A stretch of 46,136 nt of DNA from Verrucomicrobiia bacterium. GTDB taxonomy: Bacteria; Verrucomicrobiota; Verrucomicrobiia; Limisphaerales; UBA11358. This document shows positions 13,157-32,120 of this stretch, one piece after another. The notes under the pieces were generated by a model, which saw only the letters and a program-made list of their open reading frames with translations, ran no database searches and had not been told where the DNA came from. The position numbers and the translations under genes are program-made. How positions within the stretch are numbered: the first letter of the stretch is position 1; every line of letters begins with the position of its first letter. The DNA is taken from contig JANWKE010000118.1 of the NCBI GenBank assembly GCA_025451535.1, positions 1 to 46,136 of the forward strand. The letters run 5' to 3'.

Positions 13157-16100
13157 TCACGGATGGCTCACCCGGTAAAACCGCTGGCTGGAGACTGCGT
13201 TGGTGTCCCAGACCGTGACCGTGATATTCGTGGATGCCGTATTGGTATAGTGCAACAACGGCAGCCAGTTGGTGCCCAATAAACTCAGGGTGTACTGGAC
13301 CTGATAAGGCAGGTTCGTTTGCGCCAGCCAGGTAATGGCGAACTTCCTCGCCGGCGGCGGGGTCTGAACCAGCGAACCCGTCAGGACCACGGGTACAGTG
13401 TTGAACGGACTGGGATCAAGACCGTTTGGAATTCCATTGCCGTTCGAATCAATGACCAGGCTGTAACGCGCCGCGCGATTGACTGCGACGGTCTGGCCGT
13501 TGACGATGACATCCACCGAACTATTCGGGCCGGCAAAGCTACCGACCCAGCGTAAATGGCCGCCGAGTTTGCCGTTCAAAACCTCTTCCGCTTCCTGCGG
13601 AACCTGTCCACTCCCGCCGTTGGCAATCACGTAATAAGACTGTCCGTTGAGAAGATTGTTGGTCTCCACTTCCAGTTGCGGGATGCCGTTGCTGCTTAAA
13701 ACCGTGATGGCGGGTGGAAGCTTCGCCGCGGCATAATAGATGACCAGGTTCGGGTCGGTTTGCAGCATCTCCTCCAGGTTGGTGACCTGTGACAAATCGA
13801 GCAGGTCAACATACAAGGCATTACTCACGCTCGCGCCGCTGAAATAGAACAGCGGCGGGAAAGAAGCAACGCCCTGCGGCGACAATATCAATTGACCCAG
13901 AGCCACATTATTCGAATAACCGGCCACGACCGCCCCAAAATCCTGCCCCGACCACAGGTAATCCACTTCCGCCCCGTTGTATGCGTTGCCGGTGATGGCG
14001 GTCCCCAGCAAATCACCGGTCGCCGGCTTGACCGGCAGGTTGAAACCATTCGCGCAAGTCAGCCGGTTGTTGGCGGAACCGCCCGAATCGTAAAGCGCAT
14101 TGGTCAGGTTGAAATTAAACTGATTCCCGACCGACAGCGTGGAGTTGTCCAGTTTCAGGAAGCCGCCGGTGAAATCCATATCCGCGCCGGAGGTGATGCC
14201 GGCATTTTCTATTTTGCCGCTGGAGGTGGTCACAAAGTATCCGCCCGGAGCAGTCTGGCTCCCCCCGCTTTGATAGAAAACGCTGTTGATCATCTCACGG
14301 CCGCCGACACTAATGGTGCCGTTGTTGACAAACGCGGCGTAGTTCGTTGGCCCGTCACTCCCGAAATAGGCGTCCTGGGGAATGGAGAGTGATCCGCTGT
14401 TGGTGAAATACAGGAGGTACGGTGCGAGCCCGCGGTTCCAATTCTGAAGATGGGGGCCGGAAAGGTTAAGCGCCCCTTGCAAGGTCAGGCTCTGGCCGTT
14501 GAACAGGAAAATATCCACCACGTTCATGGAATCGCTGACCACTGCATTGGTCTGCAAAATCAAATCCTGAACCGTCACCGGTACGAAGGCGGACAGTGCG
14601 GTCGCGTCCAGCATCATCACATGAAAGTCCATTTCGGTGATGTTGGTGAACACATTGTTGGTGAGGACGGGAGGGGAATTGCTGGCCGCGGTATTCGTGA
14701 CGTAATAATAATTGGTAAAGACCGTGAACAGGCCGTTGGTCCAAACAGCGCTCCAGGCGAATAAATTCCCGTGCATCGCCGGCAGGGGTGTCGTGTTCAC
14801 GAGATTGGTCACGTTCAGATTGCCCGCGAACGAACCGAGGTTAAAATTTAAATTCTGGCATGAGATAACCGCGCCGGTGCTGCCCAGGAAGTTGTTGGCC
14901 TGTATGGCAATCTCCGCTCCCGCACTGGTCATGGTCGTCTGAGTCAGGTCCAAATTGGTGGCATTAATGATAATTCGGCCGGGCAAATTAGTCACGTCCC
15001 CGCCAACGGGGTCCCGCACCAGATCGTCAACAAAGGCACCATAACCGGCATACAAGGCCTGGACGACGGCGTTGGAAAAAGTCGTGTCGAAAAAAAAGTT
15101 GGTGGGGGGCGGTCCGAGGCCCAAAGCACCGGCGGCGAAAGTTCCCTGGTCCAGCCGGGACAAAATATAATTGGCCGGACGGTAAGTCGGGTCGGTACAG
15201 GGAGACTGGGGATTGTCACCTATGTTTGCGGACAAATTCAGCGCCAACCCCCGGTTGGTCAATGCCCCCAAAGTGTCCTCCAGATAAACCGTGCCCCCGG
15301 GCGAACTCAGTTTCACGGTAACGGTTCGGAACAGATTTGAAATGTTGTCGCTGTTGGCGATATACCTGTCATCCGGAATGATGTTGGGGTCGCTGACAGC
15401 GACAAAGACCGCCTGCCGGAAGATCTTGGAAGGTATATTGGTCGTGATCGTTTGCTGGGTAATATTCGTATAAACAATATTGGTGTAACTGGCCACCATG
15501 TTCGTCGAATCTGCCAGGCTGGGGGCGAATCCGATTTGGGCTCCTCCATTCAAAAGGCCGCACAATCCGTCCAAATAGAAAATCGGCGATATGCTCACGA
15601 TGCCATTCCAGATCGCCGAACTGTCGAAGGCATAGGGAGTTGTGCTGAACGGAAACGTGTTGGTTTGCTTCCAATCCTCGTCGTAGATGGCCGTGTCCGG
15701 CACAAAATTCGTCGGGGTACTGGGGCTGCCTTGCGGCGCAATCGAGATAATCTGCAACGTACTCCGCCTCAAATTAACGTTCGCGCCGTTCAACACGATT
15801 TCGCCGCCGGCGCCGCTGATGAGCGTGCCTTTATTCATGATATTCGTGGCCGAGATCAACAAATAGCTCCCTAAAGAAGTCAGATAGTTTGGATTGGCAA
15901 TTGACCCATCATTCGCCCGGATGGTCCCGCGATTGTCATTGAAGAAACTGGCGGACATCCCGCGGCTGCTTGGGTTGCCGCCGGTGGACGGTCCATAATC
16001 GAATTCCCACCCCACCGAGCCGGTCATGGTGCCTACATTCGTGTAGTTGAGGGTATGAGCAGTCTGGTACGGAAGGGTAGTGGTGGAGATGTTCCAGGTA

Positions 16101-16294
16101 CCGGAATTATAAAAATTCGTCGCGTCCACATTGGGCGGAGTTCCGTTGATCGTAGTGGTGTTGATGTAGATCGAATCCGTACCCTTCACCACCAATGGAA
16201 ACAACATCAATCCGGCCAACAGCGGCGCCATCCGGTTGCGCAGCACCATTCTGTTTCCCATTTGGCTGATCGACTTGAAGAAATCTAAATTCAT
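13157..16294 (-). CDS. Large exported Thr/Asn-rich surface protein (beta-helix-like)
   Basis: About 1045 residues from the ATG at 16294. A TTG at 16312 would overlap the upstream TGA as TTGA and add six residues, and either start is possible. A basic segment followed by MAPLLAGLMLFPLVVKG acts as signal peptide. The body is rich in Asn, Thr, Gly and Ser, with repeated short beta motifs (NNGTISVGG, TNSGSLSIP, NLDLTQTTMTSAG, GAEIVLNGANVN) as in adhesins or autotransporter passengers of beta-helix type. No catalytic motif was found. The C-terminal ~60 residues (YQVQYTLSLLGTNW...FYRVSHP) match the module in neighbouring exported proteins. There is no visible C-terminal beta-barrel, so classical type V secretion is not supported. 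Function unknown. Confidence 0.85.
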   Translation of the reverse strand: MNLDFFKSISQMGNRMVLRNRMAPLLAGLMLFPLVVKGTDSIYINTTTINGTPPNVDATNFYNSGTWNISTTTLPYQTAHTLNYTNVGTMTGSVGWEFDYGPSTGGNPSSRGMSASFFNDNRGTIRANDGSIANPNYLTSLGSYLLISATNIMNKGTLISGAGGEIVLNGANVNLRRSTLQIISIAPQGSPSTPTNFVPDTAIYDEDWKQTNTFPFSTTPYAFDSSAIWNGIVSISPIFYLDGLCGLLNGGAQIGFAPSLADSTNMVASYTNIVYTNITQQTITTNIPSKIFRQAVFVAVSDPNIIPDDRYIANSDNISNLFRTVTVKLSSPGGTVYLEDTLGALTNRGLALNLSANIGDNPQSPCTDPTYRPANYILSRLDQGTFAAGALGLGPPPTNFFFDTTFSNAVVQALYAGYGAFVDDLVRDPVGGDVTNLPGRIIINATNLDLTQTTMTSAGAEIAIQANNFLGSTGAVISCQNLNFNLGSFAGNLNVTNLVNTTPLPAMHGNLFAWSAVWTNGLFTVFTNYYYVTNTAASNSPPVLTNNVFTNITEMDFHVMMLDATALSAFVPVTVQDLILQTNAVVSDSMNVVDIFLFNGQSLTLQGALNLSGPHLQNWNRGLAPYLLYFTNSGSLSIPQDAYFGSDGPTNYAAFVNNGTISVGGREMINSVFYQSGGSQTAPGGYFVTTSSGKIENAGITSGADMDFTGGFLKLDNSTLSVGNQFNFNLTNALYDSGGSANNRLTCANGFNLPVKPATGDLLGTAITGNAYNGAEVDYLWSGQDFGAVVAGYSNNVALGQLILSPQGVASFPPLFYFSGASVSNALYVDLLDLSQVTNLEEMLQTDPNLVIYYAAAKLPPAITVLSSNGIPQLEVETNNLLNGQSYYVIANGGSGQVPQEAEEVLNGKLGGHLRWVGSFAGPNSSVDVIVNGQTVAVNRAARYSLVIDSNGNGIPNGLDPSPFNTVPVVLTGSLVQTPPPARKFAITWLAQTNLPYQVQYTLSLLGTNWLPLLHYTNTASTNITVTVWDTNAVSSQRFYRVSHP

Positions 16295-16308
16295 TTGATA
16301 CTCACTAT

Positions 16309-18762
16309 TCAATTAATCGTAAGTGAATAAGTTGTATCCACCACATTGGTTGACGGAACGGTGGAATCGCTCATTTGGACCACGATGTTATCGAACGTTC
16401 CGCTTTGCGTCGGTGTACCTGAAATAACCCCTCCCGAGTTCAAAGTCAAACCTGGTGGCAGTCCCGCGGAAATGGGCGCGAGCGCCCAGGAATAAGGCGG
16501 CTGGCCGCCGGTGGCCGTGAACGTGACGCTGTAAGCGGTGCCGACAGTGCCATTGGGTAAATTCGGTGGTGGCGGGGAAACCTGGAAAAACGCCTCGGCG
16601 GCCAGAGTGGCCATGCTGGTACCGTTGGGATAAACAATCGGCGCGTTGGTCGTCCCATCATACGAAGCCCAGTTAAGCGTGGACAAGCCAAGAGAGTTTT
16701 GCGGCCCCGTCAGAAAACTTGGGGCGCTGTTCTGATAAACCGGTCCCGCCGAGTTAAAGATGATGCTGATATTTGTCGAGGTCGTGGGATCAATGATTCC
16801 CGGCCCGGCCAAATTGGGGCCGCGGCTGTCAATGAAGTTAGGCTGGCTGTCAGCGATTTCGGATCCTCCGAGGATGCTATTCCCGGAGCCGGCGAGCAAA
16901 CTCTGCGCCCCAAAGAGGATATCCGGCCTTGTCACCACGCGTTGGAACGTCCTTGTGACATACTGATGGTTGGTAATGACCACCATGGAGTATTGGTTGG
17001 TTATGGCCTGCCGGAATTGTCCGTTTTGATAGTCGTAATTGTCATCCGATACGCGGATGAATTGCATTCGGCCAATACCCTGGTAATCGGCAATTGCGTT
17101 GGTCACCAGCGTGCAGGGTTGCACGACAAAGGTGTAATTGGTGAAATAGGAAATAAGATTCTGGGCAAAACTTTGACCGTTCACATTCGTAGCCCCGACG
17201 ATGGTATTTGTTACGATGTTCACATTGGTCTGAAGGGTCTGAATAATATTGGGTCCACAGCTGCCATTCGTAATAATGAAGTAGTCTCCCGAAACCACAT
17301 TGGATTGGAACGCCTGGTAGGTGACATTGGTCACAAATGGGGATCCGGCTGGCGCACCAACCAGCGGGCCCACGCTGACAGTCTGGAGGGCAAATGCGGT
17401 ATTGGGATAAGTTTTGTTGGTGACTACGTTGCCAAAAGTGTATTGAAAAAACTCCACGATATTGGCCACCTGATTGGTCACCACCACCAGCGCGGCCGGC
17501 GCACCCGCAGGACTGCCAACGTAATTGGTGAAATAGGCAATCACATTCGGCGAAACCACATTGCTGAAGTAGTTGGTCACGAGACCGAACGTCAAACCCG
17601 GAAACAATGCTTGCAGCGTGGCCGGATTATTGGTCAGTGATATGGCCACCAGGGCGTTGTAGTTGGACGTGAAAAGCAATTGGGGGTTGTTGAAATTGGT
17701 GCTGAAAAGAACACTCCCGCCCGCCGGTTGCTCCAGATAAGCGGGTGCCGGGTCAAAAATATTGTTCGTGCTGAGCAGGTAGCGCAATCCGGCCACGTCG
17801 TCCCGCGTCAATCCCGTGTAGAAACCGCCATTGGCCAGGAACCCTTCCCCGGGAGGAGCCCCGGAAGCAACCGATGGATTGTTGATTAACGGGTCAACCG
17901 GAATTTCAAGCGCATCCGCGATCGGCGGCGCTAACGGCGGCGGTGGGCCGCAGGTTTCATAAATGTAATAAGAATAAAGCTCGGCGTTGACGTAGGGCGA
18001 ATATTGATAGTTGGTCAGCGACGATGGGACGATGTCAAAGTTTCTGGGAATGACCCAGTAATCAATGCCATTGGCGATGCCAATGCCACCGGTTGCGACA
18101 CAAGTAGCACCCGCAGGCACAAAACGACTCAATAGTCCCCAGGTGTAGCGCACCGAGTCAGCCAGTCCTAATTGCTCCAACATCATAGCCATGGTGATCG
18201 ATTTTAAATCGGTCAATCCCAGGGCCTGCGCCTGATAATTGATGCCTGCCGAGTTCAAGGGAAACTCGGACAAATTCATACTGTATTTATCAACGCCGTT
18301 TGCAGGAGTCAAAGCCACGGAAGGACCGTTGAAAACACCGTTCGTCCCGCCCGTCAGAATACCAGAACTTGTGCCGGCCACGAACAAGGGAGTATTCGTC
18401 TGGCCATTCAGAACGCCATTTAAAGTTTCCATCGCCTGTTCCACCGCCGTCTCGCCATCTGAACCAAACCAGACAAAATCCGGATCGAACGTGTAATACA
18501 TTATCGGGTTATTATACCGGTATCCTTCCGCGATGTTCTTGGGTCCAAAAGCGTGCGAAGTGGTGCCAATAAACGGCGGCGCACCGCCATTGGGCAGCGG
18601 GTCGTAACCAAGGTCCGTTACCTGCCAATTATCCTCCACCGTGCCACCGGTGGTCCCGGCGGACCCCACGGGGCCCAACAATGAAAACGCCCAGGCCGAT
18701 TGGAGACCCAATGCCAGACAACCAATCCACAAACTATATTTTATCAATCGCCTCATACTCAT
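16309..18762 (-). CDS. Exported protein with C-terminal putative-Ig domain
   Basis: 817 residues, signal peptide MSMRRLIKYSLWIGCLALGLQ and a few residues beyond. The N-terminal half has YYTFDPDFVWFG and, near residue 310, LTRDDVAGLRYLL, which resembles the end of matrixin-type metalloprotease domains. I found no HExxH zinc motif, so an inactive or different domain is more likely. The middle ~350 residues are extremely rich in Asn, Val, Thr and Tyr (VVTNQ, FTNYV repeats). The last ~90 residues are a He_PIG-type putative Ig domain (GTVGTAYSVTFTATGGQPPY...GLPPGLTL...GVISGTP). Only one base separates its ATG from the TGA of the preceding gene, so the two belong to one transcript. It lacks the FYR C-terminal module of its neighbours. 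Confidence 0.87.
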   Translation of the reverse strand: MSMRRLIKYSLWIGCLALGLQSAWAFSLLGPVGSAGTTGGTVEDNWQVTDLGYDPLPNGGAPPFIGTTSHAFGPKNIAEGYRYNNPIMYYTFDPDFVWFGSDGETAVEQAMETLNGVLNGQTNTPLFVAGTSSGILTGGTNGVFNGPSVALTPANGVDKYSMNLSEFPLNSAGINYQAQALGLTDLKSITMAMMLEQLGLADSVRYTWGLLSRFVPAGATCVATGGIGIANGIDYWVIPRNFDIVPSSLTNYQYSPYVNAELYSYYIYETCGPPPPLAPPIADALEIPVDPLINNPSVASGAPPGEGFLANGGFYTGLTRDDVAGLRYLLSTNNIFDPAPAYLEQPAGGSVLFSTNFNNPQLLFTSNYNALVAISLTNNPATLQALFPGLTFGLVTNYFSNVVSPNVIAYFTNYVGSPAGAPAALVVVTNQVANIVEFFQYTFGNVVTNKTYPNTAFALQTVSVGPLVGAPAGSPFVTNVTYQAFQSNVVSGDYFIITNGSCGPNIIQTLQTNVNIVTNTIVGATNVNGQSFAQNLISYFTNYTFVVQPCTLVTNAIADYQGIGRMQFIRVSDDNYDYQNGQFRQAITNQYSMVVITNHQYVTRTFQRVVTRPDILFGAQSLLAGSGNSILGGSEIADSQPNFIDSRGPNLAGPGIIDPTTSTNISIIFNSAGPVYQNSAPSFLTGPQNSLGLSTLNWASYDGTTNAPIVYPNGTSMATLAAEAFFQVSPPPPNLPNGTVGTAYSVTFTATGGQPPYSWALAPISAGLPPGLTLNSGGVISGTPTQSGTFDNIVVQMSDSTVPSTNVVDTTYSLTIN

Positions 18763-18763
18763 T

Positions 18764-20743
18764 TCACTGGCGCAGGAGCATCACGCGGTAATAGCCTGCG
18801 GAACTCCTGCCGACAAAGATTGAATCACTGGTTCCCGCCGCGAATCGCGGCGAACCCCAATTGGTCCACGTACCCAGGCTCGTTGTGGCCTGCACCTGGT
18901 AAGTGAAGCCGGGCTGGGTGTTCCAACTGAGGAACAGACCTTCCGGCGTGTTGCTCAACGCCGTGCGGAGCCACGTGCCGGGATCCATCGGATTGCCGCC
19001 GCTCAGGAACACCTGCAGGAGGCTCAAACCCCCGGGCGCCAGCGGCGCGTTCACATTGGTTGGCCAGTTGACAAAATTGTATCCGTAATATTCCTCCATC
19101 CATTCAAACGGGATGCCGTAATAGTTGGCCCCGCTCCACGTCGTGCCGCTGGTCGAGGGCGACAGCGGCGCGTGGCGGCCATCCATGGTGACGTAATCCA
19201 CCCGGAAGGAATGGGTGCTGCTGGCGGTCAAACCGTTTGCGGACGTCATCATCCACACATTGCTGGTGGTCAACACCGTCGGGGTGGACGCGCCGTCCAG
19301 GTAAAGTTCGTAATTGGAAACTGCCAGGCCCGTCACCGGCGGCCACGACACAACCAATTGAGGCTGATAAGCGTTACTGACCACGACAAACGGCGCATAG
19401 ACAAACGGCGCCGGCAGCGGCTCCAATGGCTGCTGGGTATTGAGGAAACGTTGCGCGAGCAAATCAAAGCTGTATTGCAAACCAGTAAAGCCGCTCCAAA
19501 CCACCAAAAACTGACTGGCCCCATCCGAGGCGATCACCGGTTGGATTTGCTTGCTGACCGTCAAACTGGTTGGCGGGTTGACTTCGAACTGGCTGCCTGT
19601 AGTCGAGCCATCTCCCCGCAGGAATTGTCCATAAATCCCTTGCTGCGGCGTCAAGCTCGTCCAGATAATCAAGTAATCCGTTCCCAGCGAGCTGATCCGC
19701 GACCCGTATTGATCCCCGTAAAGATACGAATTGACTCGTACCACCGTGCCGCCCGCGCCGGCACTCGAAAACGAGCGGGCATATATATCCAGACCGTTGC
19801 CATACGGGCTGGTCATGTCACGCGCGGCCCAGGTCACCATGAACCCTCCGTCCGAGCCGACGGCCATCGCCGGATTGGCACAGGGATTGAAATCCGAGTT
19901 GACAAGGAATTCGCTCCCTTGCGCGTTGCCGCTGCCGTCGTAAAGCCGGGCATAAATATCCACGCTGGGATAGGACATCTGGCCGGGCGTCTGCAGACCT
20001 GAACTTGGCGCGGCGACAGCGCGTTCCTGCTCGGACACCCACGCAACCGCAAATCCGCCGTTAGCCAGCGCTGCCACCGTCGGCGTGCGCTGATTGTAGG
20101 ATGTAAACTGGTTGATCAAAAATTCGCCAGTGAGCGGCGTGCCCGTCGGCGAGAAAACCCGGCCATAAACGTCCTGCAAACTGCTGGAACCCACTTCATC
20201 GAAACTGGCCCAGACGATGACGACGTTGCCGTTAGTCAAGGTGGCAACCGCGGGAGTGATTTGGAAATTGTTGGTAAACGTATTGACCATGACATCGCTG
20301 GTCAACCAGGTATGGTTTGAGCCGAGGAACCGAGCGTAAATGTGCTGGGATGCTGCCGGCCCGCCTTGCCAGACAAAGGCCGCACCGCCGCCCGGCAACA
20401 AGGTTAGCCGTGGATTCTCCTGGTCGCCGTCACCCTGTACATTGACGCGGAAGGAGCTGCCCGATCCGGAAAGGGTGCTGTTGAGCAGCATCGCGCTCAC
20501 CCCCCAACCGTCACCATCGGTGATGTTGTCCTGCCAGACAACAAAACCACCGCCGGAAGTCACTGCCACATCGGAATGAACCTGATCACCGGGCAGGGAA
20601 CCAACGATGACGTATTCACTTCCATTAGTGGTGTAGTAATTCGTCTGGCCCCAGACCACGGCCGGAAGCGCGAGCATCCATCCCCAGCAAAGGCAAACGA
20701 CAGTCTGGCGCCTGAAAAACCCCGATTGGATGGCCATACTCAT
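18764..20743 (-). CDS. Exported beta-propeller-like repeat protein
   Basis: 659 residues with a signal peptide (to about G32). Residues ~45-430 contain about seven repeats of 50-60 residues. Each has a GGFVVWQ/GGFAVAWV/GGFMVTWA-like strand and a DIYARLYDGSG.../...EFLVN segment, the pattern expected for a beta-propeller. A fibronectin-III-like segment (LAVSNYELYLDGAS) follows. The protein ends with the C-terminal module YQVQATTSLGTWTNW...YYRVMLL. No catalytic residues are evident; binding or display at the cell surface is the best guess. First gene of the four-gene block of exported proteins. The upstream spacer carries a perfect dyad at 20802-20820. Confidence 0.87.
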   Translation of the reverse strand: MSMAIQSGFFRRQTVVCLCWGWMLALPAVVWGQTNYYTTNGSEYVIVGSLPGDQVHSDVAVTSGGGFVVWQDNITDGDGWGVSAMLLNSTLSGSGSSFRVNVQGDGDQENPRLTLLPGGGAAFVWQGGPAASQHIYARFLGSNHTWLTSDVMVNTFTNNFQITPAVATLTNGNVVIVWASFDEVGSSSLQDVYGRVFSPTGTPLTGEFLINQFTSYNQRTPTVAALANGGFAVAWVSEQERAVAAPSSGLQTPGQMSYPSVDIYARLYDGSGNAQGSEFLVNSDFNPCANPAMAVGSDGGFMVTWAARDMTSPYGNGLDIYARSFSSAGAGGTVVRVNSYLYGDQYGSRISSLGTDYLIIWTSLTPQQGIYGQFLRGDGSTTGSQFEVNPPTSLTVSKQIQPVIASDGASQFLVVWSGFTGLQYSFDLLAQRFLNTQQPLEPLPAPFVYAPFVVVSNAYQPQLVVSWPPVTGLAVSNYELYLDGASTPTVLTTSNVWMMTSANGLTASSTHSFRVDYVTMDGRHAPLSPSTSGTTWSGANYYGIPFEWMEEYYGYNFVNWPTNVNAPLAPGGLSLLQVFLSGGNPMDPGTWLRTALSNTPEGLFLSWNTQPGFTYQVQATTSLGTWTNWGSPRFAAGTSDSIFVGRSSAGYYRVMLLRQ

Positions 20744-20984: not shown

Positions 20985-21869
20985 CTAGATCAAAACCGCC
21001 TGACATTCATGCGCCTCTTCCCCCAGCGCCGCCAGCAGCGTCTTGAAACCCCAGCGCCGATACAGCTCACGCAAACAACCGGCGTCCGCCGGCTTTTCCG
21101 CCAGCGCCGCCGGCGAAAATGTGCAAGGCAAATCCTCACGCAACCGCACCAACTCCCGGTTGCGCCGCACAGCGTCCCCGGCTGCCTGCAAGTTCGCGCG
21201 AAGTTTCTCCGACTTTACTTCGCCGAGCCGTTCATACAGAACACGAACCGACCCAAACTGGCTCAGCAACTCCGCGGCGGTTTTTGGGCCGATCCCGGGC
21301 ACCCCGGGGATATTGTCCACGCTGTCGCCGGTCAGACTCAACCAGTCCACCATTTGCGACGGTTGCACGCCTGCTTTCATACGGACCTGTTCGTCGGTCC
21401 AAATGGTTTCGGTCTTGTCGTTTGGATTCAGCAACCCGATTTGCCCGGACACCAATTGCATGAAATCCTTGTCGGAACTGGCAATGACCACCGCCATGCC
21501 GGCCTCGGTCGCCCGCCGCGCCAGACAGGCAATGTAATCGTCCGCCTCCACACCTTCGCGGCAGAACGAGGCAATCCCTGCCGCCTTCAAATAACTGACT
21601 ATTTCATCCAGTTGCGGTCTTAAATCTTCCGGCATTTCCGGACGTTGCGCCTTGTATTCAGGCAGCGCCGCCAAACGTTCCGCATTCAGTCCCCCATCCC
21701 AAACCACGATTAAATGGGTCGGCTCCACGGCCGCGCGCATCTTCGCCAGCATTTTAACAAAGCCGTAAATGGCATTGGTGGGCTGACCGGTCGGCGAGCG
21801 CAAATGGCGAATCGCGTGGAAGGCGCGATAAGCATAGGCGTGTCCGTCAACAATCAGCAACCGATCCAT
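20985..21869 (-). CDS. Stand-alone 5'-3' exonuclease / flap nuclease (PolA N-terminal type)
   Basis: 294 residues matching the 5'-nuclease domain of DNA polymerase I without the polymerase part. Metal-binding acidic residues are visible in LLIVDGHAYAYRAFHA (Asp8), VVWDGG, EGVEADDYIA and VVIASSDKDFMQL. The H3TH segment GDSVDNIPGVPGIGPKTAAELL binds duplex DNA. Such proteins remove RNA primers and 5' flaps. PolA itself may be elsewhere. The gene follows the secretin operon on the same strand after an 85-base gap, so it is probably separate. ATG start at 21869. Identity as a 5'-nuclease is firm; the physiological role relative to PolA is not. Confidence 0.94.
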   Translation of the reverse strand: MDRLLIVDGHAYAYRAFHAIRHLRSPTGQPTNAIYGFVKMLAKMRAAVEPTHLIVVWDGGLNAERLAALPEYKAQRPEMPEDLRPQLDEIVSYLKAAGIASFCREGVEADDYIACLARRATEAGMAVVIASSDKDFMQLVSGQIGLLNPNDKTETIWTDEQVRMKAGVQPSQMVDWLSLTGDSVDNIPGVPGIGPKTAAELLSQFGSVRVLYERLGEVKSEKLRANLQAAGDAVRRNRELVRLREDLPCTFSPAALAEKPADAGCLRELYRRWGFKTLLAALGEEAHECQAVLI

Positions 21870-21954: not shown

Positions 21955-22605
21955 TTATTGCGGGGGCAGTGTTATTTTTTTGTCGGTTTCGCTCATCTGC
22001 CCGGCTCCCGGCGGCTGCGGCGGAATGCTGCTTTGCGCAAAGGGCAGTTCATCATCCGAATGAACGCGATTGCCGGCGGGATCCACAATGGTGGTCGTGA
22101 CAAAAATCATCAGGTTTCTTTTTACGGCAGACTTGGTTTGACTTTGAAAAAGACGGCCGAGTATCGGCAAATCGCCTATCACCGGCACCTTGTCCTTTTC
22201 GGTCTGGGTCGTGGAAGTAATCAATCCGCCCAGAACCACTGTCTGGCCATCCCAAACATTGACCGTGGTAATCACCTGCCGCACGGTAAACTGCGGCAAA
22301 ATGACAGGCAATTGCACCACATTAAGTCCACCGGTAACATTGGCAATGTTTGGCACGATCCCGTAGCCGTTGAATTCAGTCAGGGACGGAATCAGGGTCA
22401 GGTTGATGGTGTATCCATCCGATAAAACATACGGTACCACGTCCAGCAAGGGCCCGGTTTCCAGCAGTTGGGTATTAGGGGTGATCGCGGAGACGCCGGG
22501 GCTGAAGGTGTTGACCTGCGCGTAAACCATTTCAGCCCAGCCCATGGTGATCAACACTCCCGTCGCCAGCGCCAGTTTGAAAATTTTGTTATGATACGTT
22601 TTCAT
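21955..22605 (-). CDS. Secretin C-terminal half, separate polypeptide with its own signal peptide
   Basis: 216 residues. The first ~29 (MKTYHNKIFKLALATGVLIT through MVYAQ) look like a signal peptide with an AxA-type end. The mature part starts near VNTFSPG and contains the core secretin signature: ETGPLLDVVPYVLSDGYTINLTLIPS, then VWDGQTVVLGGLI, then VPVIGDLPILGRLFQS and NLMIFVTTTIVDPAGN. That is the last third of a GspD/PilQ beta-barrel domain. It directly continues the protein encoded upstream (22629-24905), which stops just where this one begins. The two frames differ, and the 23-base gap has a stop codon. A Pro/Gln-rich tail follows the barrel. A two-chain secretin is the literal reading; a recent split of a single gene is the alternative. 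Confidence 0.88.
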   Translation of the reverse strand: MKTYHNKIFKLALATGVLITMGWAEMVYAQVNTFSPGVSAITPNTQLLETGPLLDVVPYVLSDGYTINLTLIPSLTEFNGYGIVPNIANVTGGLNVVQLPVILPQFTVRQVITTVNVWDGQTVVLGGLITSTTQTEKDKVPVIGDLPILGRLFQSQTKSAVKRNLMIFVTTTIVDPAGNRVHSDDELPFAQSSIPPQPPGAGQMSETDKKITLPPQ

Positions 22606-22628
22606 TTTTCGTTGCTTAAAAAGTGTCT

Positions 22629-24905
22629 TTAAGGTGTGCCGGTGGTGGTGGTGGTGGCCGCCGAACCTTGCTGGAAGCTGAAGCCGGTGATGACCGATAT
22701 GATTTGTGTCGCCCGCATCTCGGTCTGTCGGCCGCTGGTGGTGGTAACCTCCGGCTCGGCCAACTCCTCCGTACCCAGGCGCTGCTCCAAAGCATGGAGC
22801 ACAACCTGGAAGTTGGGATTGGTCAAAATCCCCGTGATACTGGCAATGGCCGGAAGACTTCCATTATTGAGGCCGCTCGTCAGACTTTGCACCGTGGTCG
22901 GGACCGTAGTGCCATTAAAAGCGTTGCCGGGAAACGTTCCCCCGGGATTGGCCGGTGAAACCGGCACCGTGACCGACCCGGCGTTGCCAGCCGTTCCTTG
23001 GACGGAATTCCCAATATTGAACTGACCCAAATACCAGTCAAAACCCAGCCCGACGTTGTCGTCCTGTTCCACCTCAACGAACCGGGCCTTGATATGAACT
23101 TCGGGAGCCACCTGGTTCAACGCCTGAATGGCGCTCTCAATGGTGTCCAGGTCCTGCATCGTGGCCCGAACAAACAGCAACCCCAACCGGTCGTTGAAGA
23201 AAATGCTTTTCGGCGGAAATAAATTGACTCCCAGGGTCGAGAAAAAGCTCCGCGCTGACGAGCTGACACTTACCATGTCGTTGGTGCGGGTCACGAAATT
23301 CAATCCACCGCCGCCATTTTGACCCCCGCCGCCGCCGCCGCCACCACCACCACCACCCCCGCCGCCGCCGCCGCCTTGTCCGCCAGAGACCCCCCCCGGT
23401 GAAGCATTGACCACCGCAAGCAGTCCGACCGTTGTACTATTGTTGCCACCTCCGCTACTGCCGCCGCCGCCGCCGCTGCTGCTGCCGCCGCCGCCGCCAC
23501 TGCCACTGCCACTGCCGCTGCTGCTGTTGTTGTTGACGAAAACCAGCGATCCCACACTTTCCAAACCTTGCACGAAAGTGTTTGGATCTATTCTAAATGT
23601 TCGCGAGTAAAGCTGGGGCGAACGCGGTCCCTTGGCCGAGAAAACAACGGCATAATCATTGATGGAATATTCAATGGGATGGTCCGCAACCTGGACAATT
23701 GCGTCCAGCGCATCTGCCATTCGCACATCATTGAGTGCCGGGTTGATCCTGACAATGACGGAATTGATGTCCACCGCTTCTCCCCCAACCGTCGGCGTCG
23801 TGTTATTAATTGGCAGACCGGTCGCCGGATCAATACCACCACCACCACCACCGGCAGAACCGGGTCCGCTGTCAGGCCCGTTTGCGCCGGGTCCGCCAAA
23901 CGGAGAACCAACGCCGCCGGTCGGAGTGGTGGTGGCTACCGATGCGGAATTGTCCGTGTTGGGATTAATCAGAAAGTTGATGCCCACCTTGTCCGGGTCG
24001 CGCTCTTTGGCCTGTTCGCTCAGGTTGCGAACGACTTCGCTCAACGGCAGACCATCGTAAAACACCTGGTTGAGGTGGATGCGGTTCAGCTTGCTCATAA
24101 TCGCCTCGCGTCCGGGGCCGGTATGAATGAGATTGGTCGTGGCATAAGGATTGGGCACCGGCATCTGCACATTGTTTCGGATGGGAGATTCCCAGGCCTT
24201 GTTCACTTGCACGATGCGGGTATCATTATCGCTCGTGTGCATTCGCTCCGAACGGGCATAAATACCCTGTTTGACCAGACTCAAATAATAAAAAGCGCCC
24301 TGGTTCAGCGGATCCAGCTTCAACGCCTGCTGCAACTTGGCTTCCGCCTCTTCAAACTTGCCCATTTCATAAAGCAGCTTGCCATCCCGCACCAGGGTGC
24401 CAGCTTCCGTCTTGTCGTTGGCAATCAAGGGAACCTCCTGGAGGGTTGCGTCGTCAGGTACTTTCCCGCGCAAGGTGGCAATCATCCGATCGTTTTGCTT
24501 CTTAAAAGCCAAGGCGGCGGGATTTTGGGGGTCCACTTTTAAAACCCGGTTGATCTGGATGTCGGCTTCCCGCAAATTCCCCTGACGCTGCGCTTCGCGA
24601 GCCAGTTCCAGCCTCACGGACACGAGTCCCGAAATCGTTTGCGCACTTTCATCAGGAATCCCCGAACCAATCAACTGCACCAGCGCGTAAGCATCCTCGT
24701 AAAGTCTGGAGGCCACCACCAGATCGCCGTGCGCGGCGGCATCCTTGGCCTGCACCAGCTTCTGGCGCAGCACCACGGTGTTGGCCTGGCGCAGGACCGC
24801 TTCGCTCACGGCCATGTCGGTGGGGCTGTTGGTCTGGGCCGGGGACATCAAAGTGCCGGCCAATATCAGAATGAAGCCGAGTGAAACAGAAACTGCTTTT
24901 CTCAT
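22629..24905 (-). CDS. Secretin N-terminal part with TPR region, Amuc_1098-like
   Basis: 758 residues with a signal peptide (MRKAVSVSLGFILILAGTLM). Residues ~40-230 are helical and TPR-like (FEEAEAKLQQALKLDPLNQGAFYYLSLV). A periplasmic N-domain follows (IHLNQVFYDGLPLSEVVRNLSEQA). After it come a Gly-rich loop with IDPATGLP, a second N-domain (VRINPALNDVRMADALDAIVQVA), a long Gly/Ser low-complexity insertion and a third N-domain (FFNDRLGLLFVRATMQDLDTIESAIQ). The beta-barrel begins at VHIKARFVEVEQDD and ends abruptly after VITGFSFQQ and a Thr-rich tail. It lacks the VPVIGDLPILGRLF signature, which is on the next gene. The TPR-secretin combination is the outer-membrane protein type found in Verrucomicrobiota at the Amuc_1098 position. 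Last component of the PilM operon. Confidence 0.9.
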   Translation of the reverse strand: MRKAVSVSLGFILILAGTLMSPAQTNSPTDMAVSEAVLRQANTVVLRQKLVQAKDAAAHGDLVVASRLYEDAYALVQLIGSGIPDESAQTISGLVSVRLELAREAQRQGNLREADIQINRVLKVDPQNPAALAFKKQNDRMIATLRGKVPDDATLQEVPLIANDKTEAGTLVRDGKLLYEMGKFEEAEAKLQQALKLDPLNQGAFYYLSLVKQGIYARSERMHTSDNDTRIVQVNKAWESPIRNNVQMPVPNPYATTNLIHTGPGREAIMSKLNRIHLNQVFYDGLPLSEVVRNLSEQAKERDPDKVGINFLINPNTDNSASVATTTPTGGVGSPFGGPGANGPDSGPGSAGGGGGGIDPATGLPINNTTPTVGGEAVDINSVIVRINPALNDVRMADALDAIVQVADHPIEYSINDYAVVFSAKGPRSPQLYSRTFRIDPNTFVQGLESVGSLVFVNNNSSSGSGSGSGGGGGSSSGGGGGSSGGGNNSTTVGLLAVVNASPGGVSGGQGGGGGGGGGGGGGGGGGGQNGGGGLNFVTRTNDMVSVSSSARSFFSTLGVNLFPPKSIFFNDRLGLLFVRATMQDLDTIESAIQALNQVAPEVHIKARFVEVEQDDNVGLGFDWYLGQFNIGNSVQGTAGNAGSVTVPVSPANPGGTFPGNAFNGTTVPTTVQSLTSGLNNGSLPAIASITGILTNPNFQVVLHALEQRLGTEELAEPEVTTTSGRQTEMRATQIISVITGFSFQQGSAATTTTTGTP
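23322..23375. repeat. Trinucleotide tract encoding 18 consecutive Gly in the secretin
   Basis: Eighteen glycine codons (complement of ACC, CCC and GCC triplets) lie in a row inside the secretin N-terminal gene. A wider Gly/Ser zone extends to about 23533. The tract is between two N-domains and so probably forms a flexible loop. Triplet slippage here would change loop length but keep the frame. Confidence 0.85.
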
Positions 24906-24966: not shown

Positions 24967-25761
24967 TCATTTGGAACTATAAATTAACGTTGTCTTTTTC
25001 TGGTTCGATTTTGCGGATAATACCACCTCGTTCTGGTTGATGGCAACGATAATGTAATCGTCACCCGCAAATTTAAGATCGTCGCCCACACGTTGGTCCT
25101 CCCAATTTTTTCCCTCGGGACCGTATTTCAAATCCGTCATGTAACCATCCAACCGGCGGAAAGGTTTGCTTTTGGATAACACCGCCCGTTCGCCGGAATC
25201 CGTCAAACGCAGAATCAGTTGGGTTGGATTCCCGGGCGGCCCGTTGACCGAGATAACGGTGAAGGCATCATTCTTATCCCCGACGGAAGCATAATGCTGC
25301 CGCCTGGCTCGCTGCCACGCCGCCGCCGCCGCCTGACGCTCAACCTCAATGACGTACCGCGCCCCGAACTGGTTGGTCTCCACCGAAGACAGGGTCAGGG
25401 TAAAATAGAGCGGTGTGATTCTGGTAATCCTGGCAGCCTGCGGGCCGACTTCATTACCGCTTTCAATCTTGATGGGAGTGCCGTTCACCGACTTTTGCCA
25501 TTCGACCGGATTGAAAAGCCGGTTGGTCGTCTCAAAGTTGAGCTGGTAGGGCAATTGCAGGCGCTGCATCGCATTACTCTGTGCCGTCAAATCCAGTGGC
25601 GGCAGGGGCCGGACCGGATGGGAAATGATTCCGTTGCGGGTGTCATCCAGCACCGTGCGGTCGTGCAAAATCAGGAACGGCAAAAACACCATGGCCCCGA
25701 CCAGGCCGAGCAACACGACTCCCAGCAGAATCTTTTCGTAATGTTTTTTCAGGAAATCCAT
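24967..25761 (-). CDS. Single-pass inner-membrane protein at the Amuc_1099 position
   Basis: 264 residues from the ATG at 25761 (MDFLKKHYEKILLGVVLLGL). An earlier in-frame start would run into the previous gene. One transmembrane helix (residues ~9-28) is followed by a periplasmic domain of mixed beta structure, without a family motif known to me. Only four bases separate it from the upstream stop, and a 61-base gap precedes the secretin gene. Position between an Amuc_1100-like protein and a TPR-secretin corresponds to Amuc_1099 of Akkermansia. A GspC/PilP-like bridging role between inner membrane and secretin is plausible but inferred only from position and topology. Confidence 0.82.
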   Translation of the reverse strand: MDFLKKHYEKILLGVVLLGLVGAMVFLPFLILHDRTVLDDTRNGIISHPVRPLPPLDLTAQSNAMQRLQLPYQLNFETTNRLFNPVEWQKSVNGTPIKIESGNEVGPQAARITRITPLYFTLTLSSVETNQFGARYVIEVERQAAAAAWQRARRQHYASVGDKNDAFTVISVNGPPGNPTQLILRLTDSGERAVLSKSKPFRRLDGYMTDLKYGPEGKNWEDQRVGDDLKFAGDDYIIVAINQNEVVLSAKSNQKKTTLIYSSK

Positions 25762-25765
25762 GCGC

Positions 25766-26725
25766 TCAATTGCCCGGCAGTAGTTTGATGATCTCGACAT
25801 CCAGGGTGATGCTCAATAGCTGTTCGTCGAGCACCGTTTGCAATCCTCCCCTGCCGGCGGAGGACGTGCCGGCCGGCGCGGACGGCCGGCCATACGGTAT
25901 TGGCCGCCCATACGGCGACGCCGGTTGATCCGGCGAGCCCATGAGCGGCGCGCCGGGAGACGAGGATCCGGTCGCCATTCCCGCCGCCGGTTGCACGTTG
26001 ATGCCTTTGACGATGAACCCATGCGGCGACGACGCGAAACGGGACAAGACACCGGCCAAATCCTGGCTGAAACAGCGAAAAGTCACTTCATAAGGCATGA
26101 ACACGGCGAGATTATTCGTCACTGCCAGTTCATTGAGATAATCCGCCTGCGGGCCGCCGGCGTCATCCTGCGAAACCGCCACGCGACGAACGCCGTCCAA
26201 AGAATTGATTTTGGCCGCAAAAAGAACTTCACAGAGCGCCCTTACTTCGCCGAGCTGTTGAGCCAGCGAACCCAGGCTGCCCGGCGCGAACTTCACCATC
26301 GTCCGCTCCGCTTCAAACGAGAAACCGTATTGCGGCGGCAATGTGACACTGGCATTGTCCGCCTCGACTTGCAGTTGATTGATAGTATGGTCGCGCGCCG
26401 CCGCGAACTCGGCATCCGCCACCACGCCATTCGTCGGGTTGGGAATGGGGGCAATCGGCTGAAAATACTGTTCCGTTTGCTGAATCCACCCGCGGAGTTG
26501 CTGCTCCTGGGCGCGGGCAATTTCGATATTATTGACCGTGTCGTTGCCGGGTGAGGGGTTTTGACTGTGTAAATGCTGCAACGTGGCGTACGTTTGATTC
26601 AACGCGTCCAGCGCCGCGTTGTTGCGTTGCCAGTTTTGAAAATCATAGACCCCCGCCGCCGCCAGCAATCCCACGGCGATGACGGCGCCGATGAAAAAAA
26701 ATAGATTTCTCTTAATCCAGGCCAT
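25766..26725 (-). CDS. PilO-type membrane protein, Amuc_1100-like
   Basis: 319 residues. A short basic N-terminus is followed by one transmembrane helix (FFFIGAVIAVGLLAAAGVY) and a helical coil (~30-95). A periplasmic alpha/beta domain ends in a Gly/Pro-rich linker and a last beta strand (LSITLDVEIIKLLPG). The layout (one TM, coil, MPYEVTFRCFSQDLAGVLSRF strand-helix, GFIVKGINVQP, proline-rich insert, final strand) and the length agree with Akkermansia Amuc_1100 (317 residues), which has a PilO-like fold. One base separates its ATG from the TAG of pilM. PilO proteins pair with PilN and link PilM to the secretin. Direct sequence identity to Amuc_1100 looks low, so the assignment rests on architecture and gene order. 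Confidence 0.82.
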   Translation of the reverse strand: MAWIKRNLFFFIGAVIAVGLLAAAGVYDFQNWQRNNAALDALNQTYATLQHLHSQNPSPGNDTVNNIEIARAQEQQLRGWIQQTEQYFQPIAPIPNPTNGVVADAEFAAARDHTINQLQVEADNASVTLPPQYGFSFEAERTMVKFAPGSLGSLAQQLGEVRALCEVLFAAKINSLDGVRRVAVSQDDAGGPQADYLNELAVTNNLAVFMPYEVTFRCFSQDLAGVLSRFASSPHGFIVKGINVQPAAGMATGSSSPGAPLMGSPDQPASPYGRPIPYGRPSAPAGTSSAGRGGLQTVLDEQLLSITLDVEIIKLLPGN

Positions 26726-26726
26726 G

Positions 26727-28547
26727 CTACAGGTTCAATGGTTTTTTCAGCACCGCCGTAATTCCAAAAGTGAACGTCCCCGAAGCGTCCTCCGCATTGA
26801 TCTGGCCGACCAGCTGGGTGGCCTTGGGATCAAAATACGGACTGGCTTGTAATTCATTCTCCAACGTGTAGGCAATGTCACTGTTCGCCGCCGGGTCCAC
26901 CGAAGACAAACTGACCGCACGGCAAACCAGGGTGATGGCACCCACTTGATTGGTTTGGGCCGACCCCGTATTCGCCGCACCTGGTCCTGATGCGGCACCA
27001 TTATTGTAAACCGTTGGCGGTCCTCCGGCCGACGGCAGCCGCCCCGGCGTGTTGGCCGACTCCAGTGGCGCCATGCTGGTCAACTGCTCGATCCAGATGC
27101 CGGCCTGGACACCCTGCCTCTCCACAGACAACTTTTTCTGAACGTCATTCTCGGCACGAATGAGGACTTGTCTCAGGTCGGCCAGCACATCGCCCCAATA
27201 ATACCGATCATTCATCCACGCGGCGACTTGATCAGCCTCCTGCCTGGTCGTACCGACTTCACCGTAAATTTTGTTGAACCGGTCGAACTTTTCCTGCATT
27301 TGCTGGACTTCCGGTTTGAGCCGGTCGAGTTCGGTTTCCTTCGACTTGGCCAGGCTTTCAAAGAGGTATCCCACTGCAAACGCGACTGCCACCAGACTGA
27401 ACACGGTCGCGGTAAAATACGGTTTCTTTTCGTTGAAGGTGCGCCAGCGCAGCGTGCTTTCCGGCATCAGATTCATCTCCACCGGGCAATTCGCCAGATT
27501 ACGCAGACCCAGCCCGACGACTTCGCCCAGGGAATGCGCCACGCGCGCCAGTTCCTCCAAATTCACCGCGGGATCAATCTGCACGTTGCGGAACGGATTG
27601 AAGTACTCCACCGGCGCGTTCAGTTTTTCGGCGAAAAATTGCGCCGTATACGGCATGATGGAAGCGCCCCCGGCCAGAAAGAGCCGCTGCGGCGCGGCGC
27701 CGCCCATCTGGCCGCGGTAAAATTGAATCGTCTGGTTGACCTGAATGTGCAGCTTCGTCATGAATTGCCGGGCAATCTTGGAAATGGCCGCCTGATTCGG
27801 ATTCTCCGGCTCTTCATACGCGCCCCCGAGGCTGACGAAGCCCTCGGCAATTTTGATCTGTTCGGCAACTTCAAACCTCAACTTCGCTTCGTTGGCGAAA
27901 TCCTGGGTGATGGAATTTGCGCCGAGGCTGATACTGCGGGAAAAAACCTTGCCCTTTTCAAAAAAAAGCAGGTTGCTCGTCTTGGCGCCGATGTCCAGCA
28001 ACATCGTGCAGTCCTCCAAATCACCGTAGTTGTAGCGAAACGCGTTGCATAGCGCCGCCGGCGACACGTCGCACAATTGCAACCGCAACTTCGCCTCCTC
28101 GGCGATGCGAAACAATCCCTCGACGATCTCGGACTTGATCGCCACCAGCAATACTTCCAGTTCGCCCGTTGAACTGGAACCGAGAATCTGATAGTCCCAG
28201 ACGACTTCCGCCAGCGGGAAGGGCACATTTTGTTGCGCCTCGTACTGGATGATTTGCGTCACCTTGCCCGCGTCGACCGGCGGGAGTTTAACAAATTTGG
28301 AAAAAACCTGAAAGCCCGGCGCACAGACGTTGATGTTCCGCGCCACCGCGCCAATTTCCGCCAGCGTCTCCCGCAGCACCTTAAGCAGGACCGTCTCCCG
28401 CGTGGCTTCCGCCGCCCCGTCCGGTCCCAGCGATTTCAACTTGAATTCCTTCAAGCATAAAATACCGGCTTCGTTGATTTCAAAGGTCGCCAGTTTGAGG
28501 CTGCCGGCCCCAAAATCCACCGCCAAAAATGACTTTGCGTTCAGCAT
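26727..28547 (-). CDS. pilM: PilM-PilN fusion, type IV pilus / type II secretion assembly protein
   Basis: 606 residues from the ATG at 28547 (MLNAKSFLAVDFGAGSLKLA). Residues 1-370 are a PilM-type actin-fold ATPase: DFGAGSLK (phosphate 1), LLDIGAKTSNLLFFEKG (phosphate 2) and RLFLAGGASIMP (adenosine site). A single transmembrane helix near 390-410 (FTATVFSLVAVAFAVGYLFE) is followed by a coiled coil (ETELDRLKPEVQQMQEKFDR) and a PilN-like periplasmic domain to the end. The cytoplasmic sequence MNLMPES before the helix corresponds to the PilN N-terminus that binds PilM. Having both in one chain is therefore a fusion. First gene of an operon with near-zero spacing to the next gene; an AT-rich divergent spacer precedes it. 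Confidence 0.92.
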   Translation of the reverse strand: MLNAKSFLAVDFGAGSLKLATFEINEAGILCLKEFKLKSLGPDGAAEATRETVLLKVLRETLAEIGAVARNINVCAPGFQVFSKFVKLPPVDAGKVTQIIQYEAQQNVPFPLAEVVWDYQILGSSSTGELEVLLVAIKSEIVEGLFRIAEEAKLRLQLCDVSPAALCNAFRYNYGDLEDCTMLLDIGAKTSNLLFFEKGKVFSRSISLGANSITQDFANEAKLRFEVAEQIKIAEGFVSLGGAYEEPENPNQAAISKIARQFMTKLHIQVNQTIQFYRGQMGGAAPQRLFLAGGASIMPYTAQFFAEKLNAPVEYFNPFRNVQIDPAVNLEELARVAHSLGEVVGLGLRNLANCPVEMNLMPESTLRWRTFNEKKPYFTATVFSLVAVAFAVGYLFESLAKSKETELDRLKPEVQQMQEKFDRFNKIYGEVGTTRQEADQVAAWMNDRYYWGDVLADLRQVLIRAENDVQKKLSVERQGVQAGIWIEQLTSMAPLESANTPGRLPSAGGPPTVYNNGAASGPGAANTGSAQTNQVGAITLVCRAVSLSSVDPAANSDIAYTLENELQASPYFDPKATQLVGQINAEDASGTFTFGITAVLKKPLNL

Positions 28548-28766
28548 TGCTGTGTTTGCGCCATGCGCTGCCGACAAAAGACGCGTGAACTCTTATTTGT
28601 TTAGTTTATAAGTGCAGCCCGTGTTGCTTACTGTAAATTTTTTGGACGGTCAAATATAAAACTTGGAAAAATCTCCGTGTAAATCCTGCAATTAAACATT
28701 GCGTCCCGCCTTCAGCTTTGGCTTTATCCCATCGTGTCTGGACAAACGTCGGTCAACGCACTAATC
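28548..28766. promoter_or_regulatory. AT-rich divergent spacer, likely promoters for pilM operon and acyP
   Basis: This 219-base gap between the minus-strand pilM operon and the plus-strand acylphosphatase gene is markedly richer in A and T than the flanks. TATAAA-like words occur on both strands (TTATAAAC on the minus strand near 28610, AATATAAAAC on the plus strand near 28655). No convincing -35 partner at standard spacing was found, so exact promoters are not called. Nothing coding was seen. Confidence 0.4.
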
Positions 28767-32051: not shown

Positions 32052-32120
32052 CGTTTCACGCATCACGATTTGCTGTAACCTTTGGCCAATTCCTCCTTTG
32101 TATGTGGTGAAGGCAGAATC

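Follow-up and report, generated by a model that had tools for sequence, protein, structure and literature searches.

Two open reading frames for one type IV pilus secretin in Limisphaerales, with a probable nick at the Gate 1 hairpin

In a 46,136-nucleotide (nt) stretch from a Verrucomicrobiia bacterium of the order Limisphaerales (assembly GCA_025451535.1, contig JANWKE010000118.1, positions 1 to 46,136; 'the window' below), two adjacent open reading frames (ORFs) very probably encode the two chains of a single type IV pilus secretin (PilQ, Amuc_1098 type); the chains would build a ring of nicked protomers, and their gate cassettes would have been swapped within the genus. We regard a secretin of two exported chains as the best reading because the split is conserved, the leaders are conserved with a nearly invariant A-Q cleavage site, strong purifying selection acts on mature chain 2 and on the end of chain 1, and the two genes are always neighbours in the pil operon. 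The sequence-only reading of this DNA had proposed a secretin made as two polypeptides, each with its own signal peptide; the ORFs of 758 and 216 amino acids (aa), with the same arrangement in at least 53 genomes, bear this out, and the 23-base gap and the difference in frame it described are both present. The parts of the locus are as follows.

22629..24905, minus strand: 758-aa product, predicted chain 1 of a PilQ/Amuc_1098-type secretin in two parts; matches to TPR, NF042912 and GspD/PilQ models
24837..24905, minus strand: probable chain 1 signal peptide, MRKAVSVSLGFILILAGTLMSPA, cut before Q; from inspection of the sequence, no dedicated predictor
22632..22673, minus strand: free C terminus of chain 1, a Thr-rich tail, QQGSAATTTTTGTP, probably placed at the Gate 1 tip
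22606..22628, minus strand: intergenic gap of 23 nt, with no visible Shine-Dalgarno-like motif
21955..22605, minus strand: predicted chain 2, 216 aa, signal peptide and remaining secretin domain (PF00263)
22519..22605, minus strand: predicted chain 2 signal peptide, 29 aa, cut between VYA and Q
22456..22518, minus strand: N-terminal spacer of mature chain 2, 21 residues, preceding the conserved GP.LDV strand

Chain 1 begins with the probable signal peptide, followed by the TPR region, by N-terminal domains that include a Gly-rich insert, and by the start of the secretin domain as far as Gate 1; its ORF ends in SVITGFSFQQGSAATTTTTGTP and a stop codon. The ORF of chain 2, in a different frame and 23 nt away, starts with MKTYHNKIFKLALATGVLITMGWAEMVYAQ and takes up the secretin sequence again at ETGPLLDVVPYVLSDG. 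The Gly-rich, low-complexity insert is long and lies ahead of the secretin domain (window 23320-23520); the model of a single-chain relative (L161, see below) is disordered at residues 433-525, probably at the same place.

Family assignment and position of the break

Chain 2 matches Pfam PF00263 (Secretin) with residues 40-175 (profile 47-169 of 169, E 2e-26) at 93 bits, above the gathering cut-off of 27.5; chain 1 of the window gave no match to this profile at E 0.01. The GspD and PilQ models run through both chains: they reach chain 1 residues 751 and 741 and continue in chain 2 from residues 97 and 105, respectively. The secretin domain of this locus is not encoded as one continuous chain. 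Chain 1 matches NF042912, the Amuc_1098 type IV pilus outer-membrane family, with E 8e-62, and chain 2 covers positions 648-804 of the 805 in that model. The equivalog cut-off of 750 bits is reached neither by chain 1 (209.5) nor by chain 2 (130.4), nor by the single-chain relative L161 (315.7); since all Amuc scores miss the NCBIfam equivalog cut-offs, we claim homology and operon type, not equivalence. The operon type is indicated by a same-strand PilM gene upstream, whose 616-aa product scores 121 bits with PF11104 (cut-off 27), 472 with NF045709 (650) and 133.8 with TIGR01175 (133). Motor ATPase and platform are represented in the genome by 13 PF00437 (T2SSE) and 16 PF00482 (T2SSF) matches, some of which may serve systems related to type II secretion (T2SS) or others. 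The same genome has a second secretin, 43% identical (L002, G000:C77:18350-18847), in a frame of 1260 codons, and three more distant secretin matches, four extra matches in all.

That the upstream gene stops within the secretin domain had been read from the sequence alone; we can add that its position is not random: to judge by alignment and a structure model, the gene breaks at the Gate 1 hairpin tip, within the accuracy of the loop alignment. At this position single-chain relatives have a Gly/Asn/Thr-rich loop and no leader. Aligned to Vibrio cholerae GspD, the single-chain secretin-domain profile breaks open by 18 residues between GspD positions 467 and 468. With RcpA the match sets in at residue 256, by our count ∼11 residues beyond the GP motif; the RcpA structure leaves the Gate 1 tip, between P241 and Y256, unmodelled (PMC10499894, in excerpt). 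In an AlphaFold2 model of L161, which Foldseek pairs with PilQ 6w6m and GspD 5zdh at E ∼4e-16, strands 727-739 and 758-779 flank a disordered stretch, 740-757. Counted from the GRQ and GP motifs, chain 1 ends at the equivalent of L161 residue 751 and mature chain 2 starts at that of residue 749; as both ends map into the disordered stretch, the nick would lie at the hairpin tip. Against a more exact placement stand the modest quality of the L161 model (mean pLDDT, the predicted local distance difference test, 65; pTM, the predicted template modelling score, 0.34) and the weak alignment of the gate loop (the GspD gap stretch scores 1.7 bits only), so that 'Gate 1 tip' is good to ∼15-20 residues.

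Conservation, leader and selection

A chain 2 search of 320 genomes of the order matched 251 at 1e-35. We retrieved 100 regions: those of all 47 further genomes in the window's genus that matched and 53 picked by hand, namely short-frame candidates among the matches listed and single-chain loci of other families. A locus was classed by whether the parts before and after the gate share one frame. The 100 regions and the window gave 51 split loci, 49 single ones and one cut by a contig end; with L080 and L081 (paralogues outside the operon) and L104 (contig edge) left out, 98 loci remained for the tree described below, and the fraction 51/98 is no frequency, as part of the regions was hand-picked. 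Two additional splits (L219 and L220) were found among the remaining genomes. The split is therefore present in at least 53 of the 251 matching genomes, from seven families, and 53 is a lower bound, since for the rest of the matching genomes in the order the frame length was the sole criterion. Frames ending at the gate in G246, G206, G199, G203 and G277 (the last from the match list alone) were left unclassed. The L080 match (G004) lies within a frame of 1689 codons, with no pil operon genes around it.

Within the window's genus, 32 of the 46 operon loci are split and 14 are single; two more matches in the genus are secretin paralogues outside the operon. The split occurs in every matching genome of the families f16 (12/12), f54 (4/4), f43 (2/2), f19, f28 and f44 (1/1 each). 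In a second, named record set, largely of the same contigs as the main set, 40 of 80 loci are split. As to spread beyond the order, a sample drawn across the phylum and judged by frame length (387 genomes, 103 matched) gave no established split in the 101 matches counted, which omit the window's genome and G241, a split locus of the same genus; of its two shortest frames one, L215, is cut by a contig end and the other, L216, is single through the gate. In split loci the chain 2 gene directly follows the chain 1 gene. PilM lies upstream in 41/51 split and 43/47 single loci; in the 10 split loci without it a contig end cuts inside chain 1.

The geometry of the junction varies. The second ORF is offset by 0, 1 or 2 in 22, 11 and 18 of the 51 split loci, chain 1 stops with TAA, TGA or TAG in 34, 11 and 6 of them, and the gap has a median of 23 nt and a range from -4 to 208 nt (50 gaps, with L093 omitted for an extra frame break). 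A Shine-Dalgarno-like motif precedes 12/51 chain 2 starts. In split locus L093 (G098) chain 1 is apparently broken by that extra frame change, ∼350 nt before chain 2, either an error or real.

The leader of the second ORF, which the sequence-only reading held to be more than a frameshift would create, is indeed beyond chance: a crude three-part test (charged start, hydrophobic core, AXA site) was passed by 50 of the 51 chain 2 N-termini and by only 1/51 and 2/51 of the same DNA read in shifted frames. We used this control instead of another, a hydrophobic stretch before the GP motif in single chains, which was dropped because 18/47 single chains have such a stretch anyway. Leader sequences vary widely, with the A and Q at the cut (nearly) invariant in two alignments of 27 and 32 rows. 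The distance from this site to GP.LDV is 21 mature residues in 44 of the 51 split loci; in L096 and L103, two of the seven exceptions, the script took a later AQ. Nine close pairs, pooled, gave a ratio of non-synonymous to synonymous substitution rates (dN/dS) of 0.09 for mature chain 2 against 0.45 for its leader; for the C-terminal 220 residues of chain 1, pooled from eight of these pairs, it was 0.09 as well. Such a substitution pattern is what a working signal peptide on a working protein would leave. In L035 and L036, the nearest relatives of the window, non-synonymous change in the leader nearly equals synonymous change, which indicates weak constraint there.

These data bear on two explanations in which the two ORFs would not give two chains. 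A single secretin gene could have been broken by an indel, through an assembly or sequencing error or as a decaying pseudogene; single-chain orthologues in the genus (14/46 operon loci) and the extra frame break in chain 1 of L093 would suit this. We give it practically no credence, as the break recurs in 53 or more genomes, where the leader is present and all three frame offsets and all three stop codons are found, and dN/dS is 0.09 in mature chain 2 and in the end of chain 1. Nor is it at all probable that one joined protein arises from the two ORFs by frameshifting, read-through or post-translational ligation: the gap is short and 22/51 pairs are in the same frame, but the offset takes every possible value, the gap varies between -4 and 208 nt, and a conserved signal peptide would end up inside the product. 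The three offsets and three stop codons thus argue against frameshift error, programmed frameshifting and read-through alike; sequencing error or pseudogene on the one hand and programmed frameshift or read-through on the other were rejected on conservation, selection and frame offsets.

With two separate products, both chains would be exported by Sec and lose their signal peptides to signal peptidase I. Chain 1 would supply the TPR region, the N-domains, the first barrel strands and the first strand of Gate 1; chain 2 would pair with it and add the second strand of Gate 1 together with the remaining barrel strands. Most likely the two co-fold into one nicked protomer, and the ring would consist of such protomers, the strands of each gate not being covalently joined. 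The usual description of a secretin is, to our knowledge, a ring of identical single chains, whose gating mechanism is an open question. Two subunits per protomer, suggested earlier from the sequence, gain support from the conserved split, the leaders, selection and the fixed adjacency of the two genes in the pil operon, with the joint ring as the step that we infer.

One could also suppose separate barrels, with chain 1 forming a periplasmic ring, as has been proposed for RhcC1, and chain 2 acting elsewhere or together with another secretin. RhcC1 sets a precedent for a chain with N-terminal parts only (PMC3459982, in excerpt), and the genome has four further secretin-like matches; the poor prediction of chain 2 alone we count as neutral here. 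We nevertheless think separate barrels quite improbable, since the opening part of the secretin domain, absent from chain 2, is carried by chain 1 up to the gate, the two chains together equal the single-chain orthologues at the same place in the operon, and both are constrained alike.

Some observations weigh against a co-folded two-chain secretin. The nicked protomer is known here from genes; AlphaFold predicted chain 2 alone poorly (mean pLDDT 56); and all 80 named records are metagenome bins, mostly labelled Limisphaerales, Verrucomicrobia or its subdivision 3. As the genus also has relatives in which the gene is uninterrupted, function does not require the split. The sequence-only reading had called for alignment with single-chain relatives and had named such uninterrupted relatives without a leader as what would refute it. 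The alignment shows split and second leader to be conserved; the relatives were found (14 of 46 genus loci), yet they stand beside 32 split ones and represent an alternative form, not the correct version of an error. A nicked secretin with un-nicked relatives in the same genus would offer a ready-made comparison for studies of gating, of how a split barrel assembles in the outer membrane, and of how genes acquire or lose an internal signal peptide.

Probable exchange of the gate segment, and extra domains at the end of chain 1

The split and single states are scattered over the trees. With the junction omitted, the tree of 98 loci needs at least 12 changes of state, 10 of them forced by starred branches; the tree of the genus with four outgroup rows (two short rows dropped) needs eight, of which six are forced. 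In 90-column windows over the 46 genus loci the number of changes depends on position: 7-10 up to residue 732 (joined numbering), 1-2 in six windows around the gate, from 672-760 to 821-910, and 10-11 in C-terminal windows, against a mean of 11-12 for shuffled labels. A tree of 129 columns around the gate, with the loop omitted, puts 11 of the 14 single loci in one clade (99/99); L062 and L078/L079 are the singles outside it. The approximately unbiased (AU) test does not reject all 14 as one cassette clade (P 0.278); the cassette tree needs three changes, and we therefore prefer 11 singles plus two further single lineages.

The flank (chain 1 residues 60-690; five rows dropped) rejects a clade of 10 of the 11 singles (p-AU 0.0001), and PilM together with the exonuclease gene downstream of the secretin, both present in 38 of the 46 genus loci, rejects a clade of nine of them (p-AU 5e-42, quick tree). 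In both of these trees single L073 is sister to split L040, and single L064 to split L046. By identity, L073 is nearer to L040 in most flank segments and nearer to the singles L063 and L071 at 700-830. From the conflict of the gate-segment tree with the flank and neighbour-gene trees we infer that split and single forms of the gate cassette, a segment of ∼130-200 residues, were apparently swapped between lineages of the genus by old homologous recombination.

Instead of exchange, gene fission and fusion could have occurred repeatedly and independently in the genus, the shared gate residues being structural co-adaptation. Diagnostic columns are few, and synonymous sites, tried as a test of recombination, are saturated between distant lineages and show no recent exchange among distant pairs, so parallel co-adaptation stays a rival; the definition of the group of 11 after the cassette tree had been seen also counts against exchange. 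We still judge independent fission and fusion unlikely. The clade of 11 singles in the 129 columns is contradicted by flank and neighbour genes, and L062, L078 and L079 are single, yet lack most of the diagnostic residues, including a two-residue insertion, PG. Synonymous change in mature chain 2 is also far below that at the end of chain 1 in two close pairs, L097/L098 (0.07 versus 0.38) and L053/L055 (0.04 versus 0.20), although most other close pairs show no such contrast. Identity between L097 and L098 is 0.85-0.87 at the start of chain 2, 0.96-0.99 at +150 to +530, and dips to 0.88 past the end of chain 2. For these two pairs the sequences hint at a later exchange.

Chain 1 extends 150-174 residues past the GRQ motif in L083, L084 (family f43) and L085 (f16), compared with 24-59 residues in 47 others, and in all three it ends in Pfam Peptidase_S74 (E 2e-13, 7e-12 and 4e-9). 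Peptidase_S74 (endosialidase-type) is an intramolecular chaperone of phage tail spikes, which trimerises and cuts itself off; it occurs widely in the order, in 15 of a sample of 30 genomes. A domain in this place is easier to reconcile with a free chain end than with an internal loop, and these forms suggest that entire domains can sit at the pore entrance. One could speculate further, and here we are evenly divided, that the loci represent a class of two-chain secretins nicked at Gate 1, with gate strands that could be moved or decorated independently, with recombining cassettes and, in f43 and f16, with a Peptidase_S74 domain at the gate, possibly self-releasing, as assembly aid or plug.

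Known systems and neighbouring genes

The closest described protein, PilQ (Amuc_1098) of Akkermansia muciniphila, is one chain of 907 residues and the most abundant outer-membrane protein there (PMC4960237, in excerpt). It is homologous over both chains and shares the Amuc_1100- and Amuc_1101-like neighbours and the layout of TPR and secretin domain; here, unlike in Akkermansia, there are two chains, two leaders and scores under the equivalog cut-off. The solved single-chain secretins GspD, RcpA and PilQ are alike in fold and place of Gate 1, but the tip loop, unbuilt in RcpA and T2SS secretins (PMC10499894, in excerpt), is continuous in them, whereas here there are two free ends.

A secretin role spread over two genes is known from RhcC1/RhcC2 of the rhizobial type III secretion system (T3SS) and from HrcIIC1/HrcIIC2 of Pseudomonas syringae T3SS-2. 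RhcC1/RhcC2 is a secretin split by partial gene replacement (PMC4500985; PMC3459982, PMC3574062 and PMC3973906, in excerpt), in which RhcC2 carries the secretin domain, of Tad origin, and RhcC1 is the N-terminal remnant of another secretin (PMC3459982, PMC4500985). RhcC2 thus keeps the domain whole; in the window the cut is inside the domain and leaves complementary halves, for chain 2 starts at profile position 47 rather than holding a complete domain of other origin, and each chain has its match in the single-chain orthologues from this operon. Fission within the type IV filament superfamily has also produced TadB/TadC (PMC6668835, in excerpt), but there the fission parts two T2SSF domains of an inner-membrane platform, whereas here an outer-membrane barrel is cut inside a domain. 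In titles and abstract starts among the matches listed (mostly open-access literature, few preprints) we found no secretin cut in the barrel domain and no split Verrucomicrobial PilQ. RhcC1/RhcC2 is the only published split secretin we found, and a nick inside the secretin domain is apparently undescribed, which is no proof of absence; within this scope, the remark in the sequence-only reading that no such arrangement was known stands for a break inside the domain, a differently split secretin being in print.

The genes around the secretin are as follows.

24967..25800, minus strand: operon gene between secretin and Amuc_1100-like gene, 277 aa, no confident family
25766..26725, minus strand: Amuc_1100-family-like protein, 319 aa (NF038287, E 1.6e-18, 67 bits, cut-off 180)
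26727..28577, minus strand: PilM/Amuc_1101-family-like protein, 616 aa (PF11104, NF045709, TIGR01175)
20985..21869, minus strand: 5'-3' exonuclease-only protein, downstream of the secretin operon

The exonuclease neighbour is found downstream in 45/51 split and 34/47 single loci; it is probably not part of the pilus system. Adjoining the operon, at window 13157-20743, are three consecutive large ORFs (1051, 817 and 659 aa) with no Pfam match at 1e-4. Window 9081-13088 encodes a protein of 1335 aa that combines a pro-kumamolisin activation domain with a divergent InlB B-repeat domain. Ser/Thr kinase fusions, both large, are encoded at 32082-37226 and 39314-42952; one of them matches SecDF P1-head, the other malectin and carboxypeptidase-regulatory-like domains.

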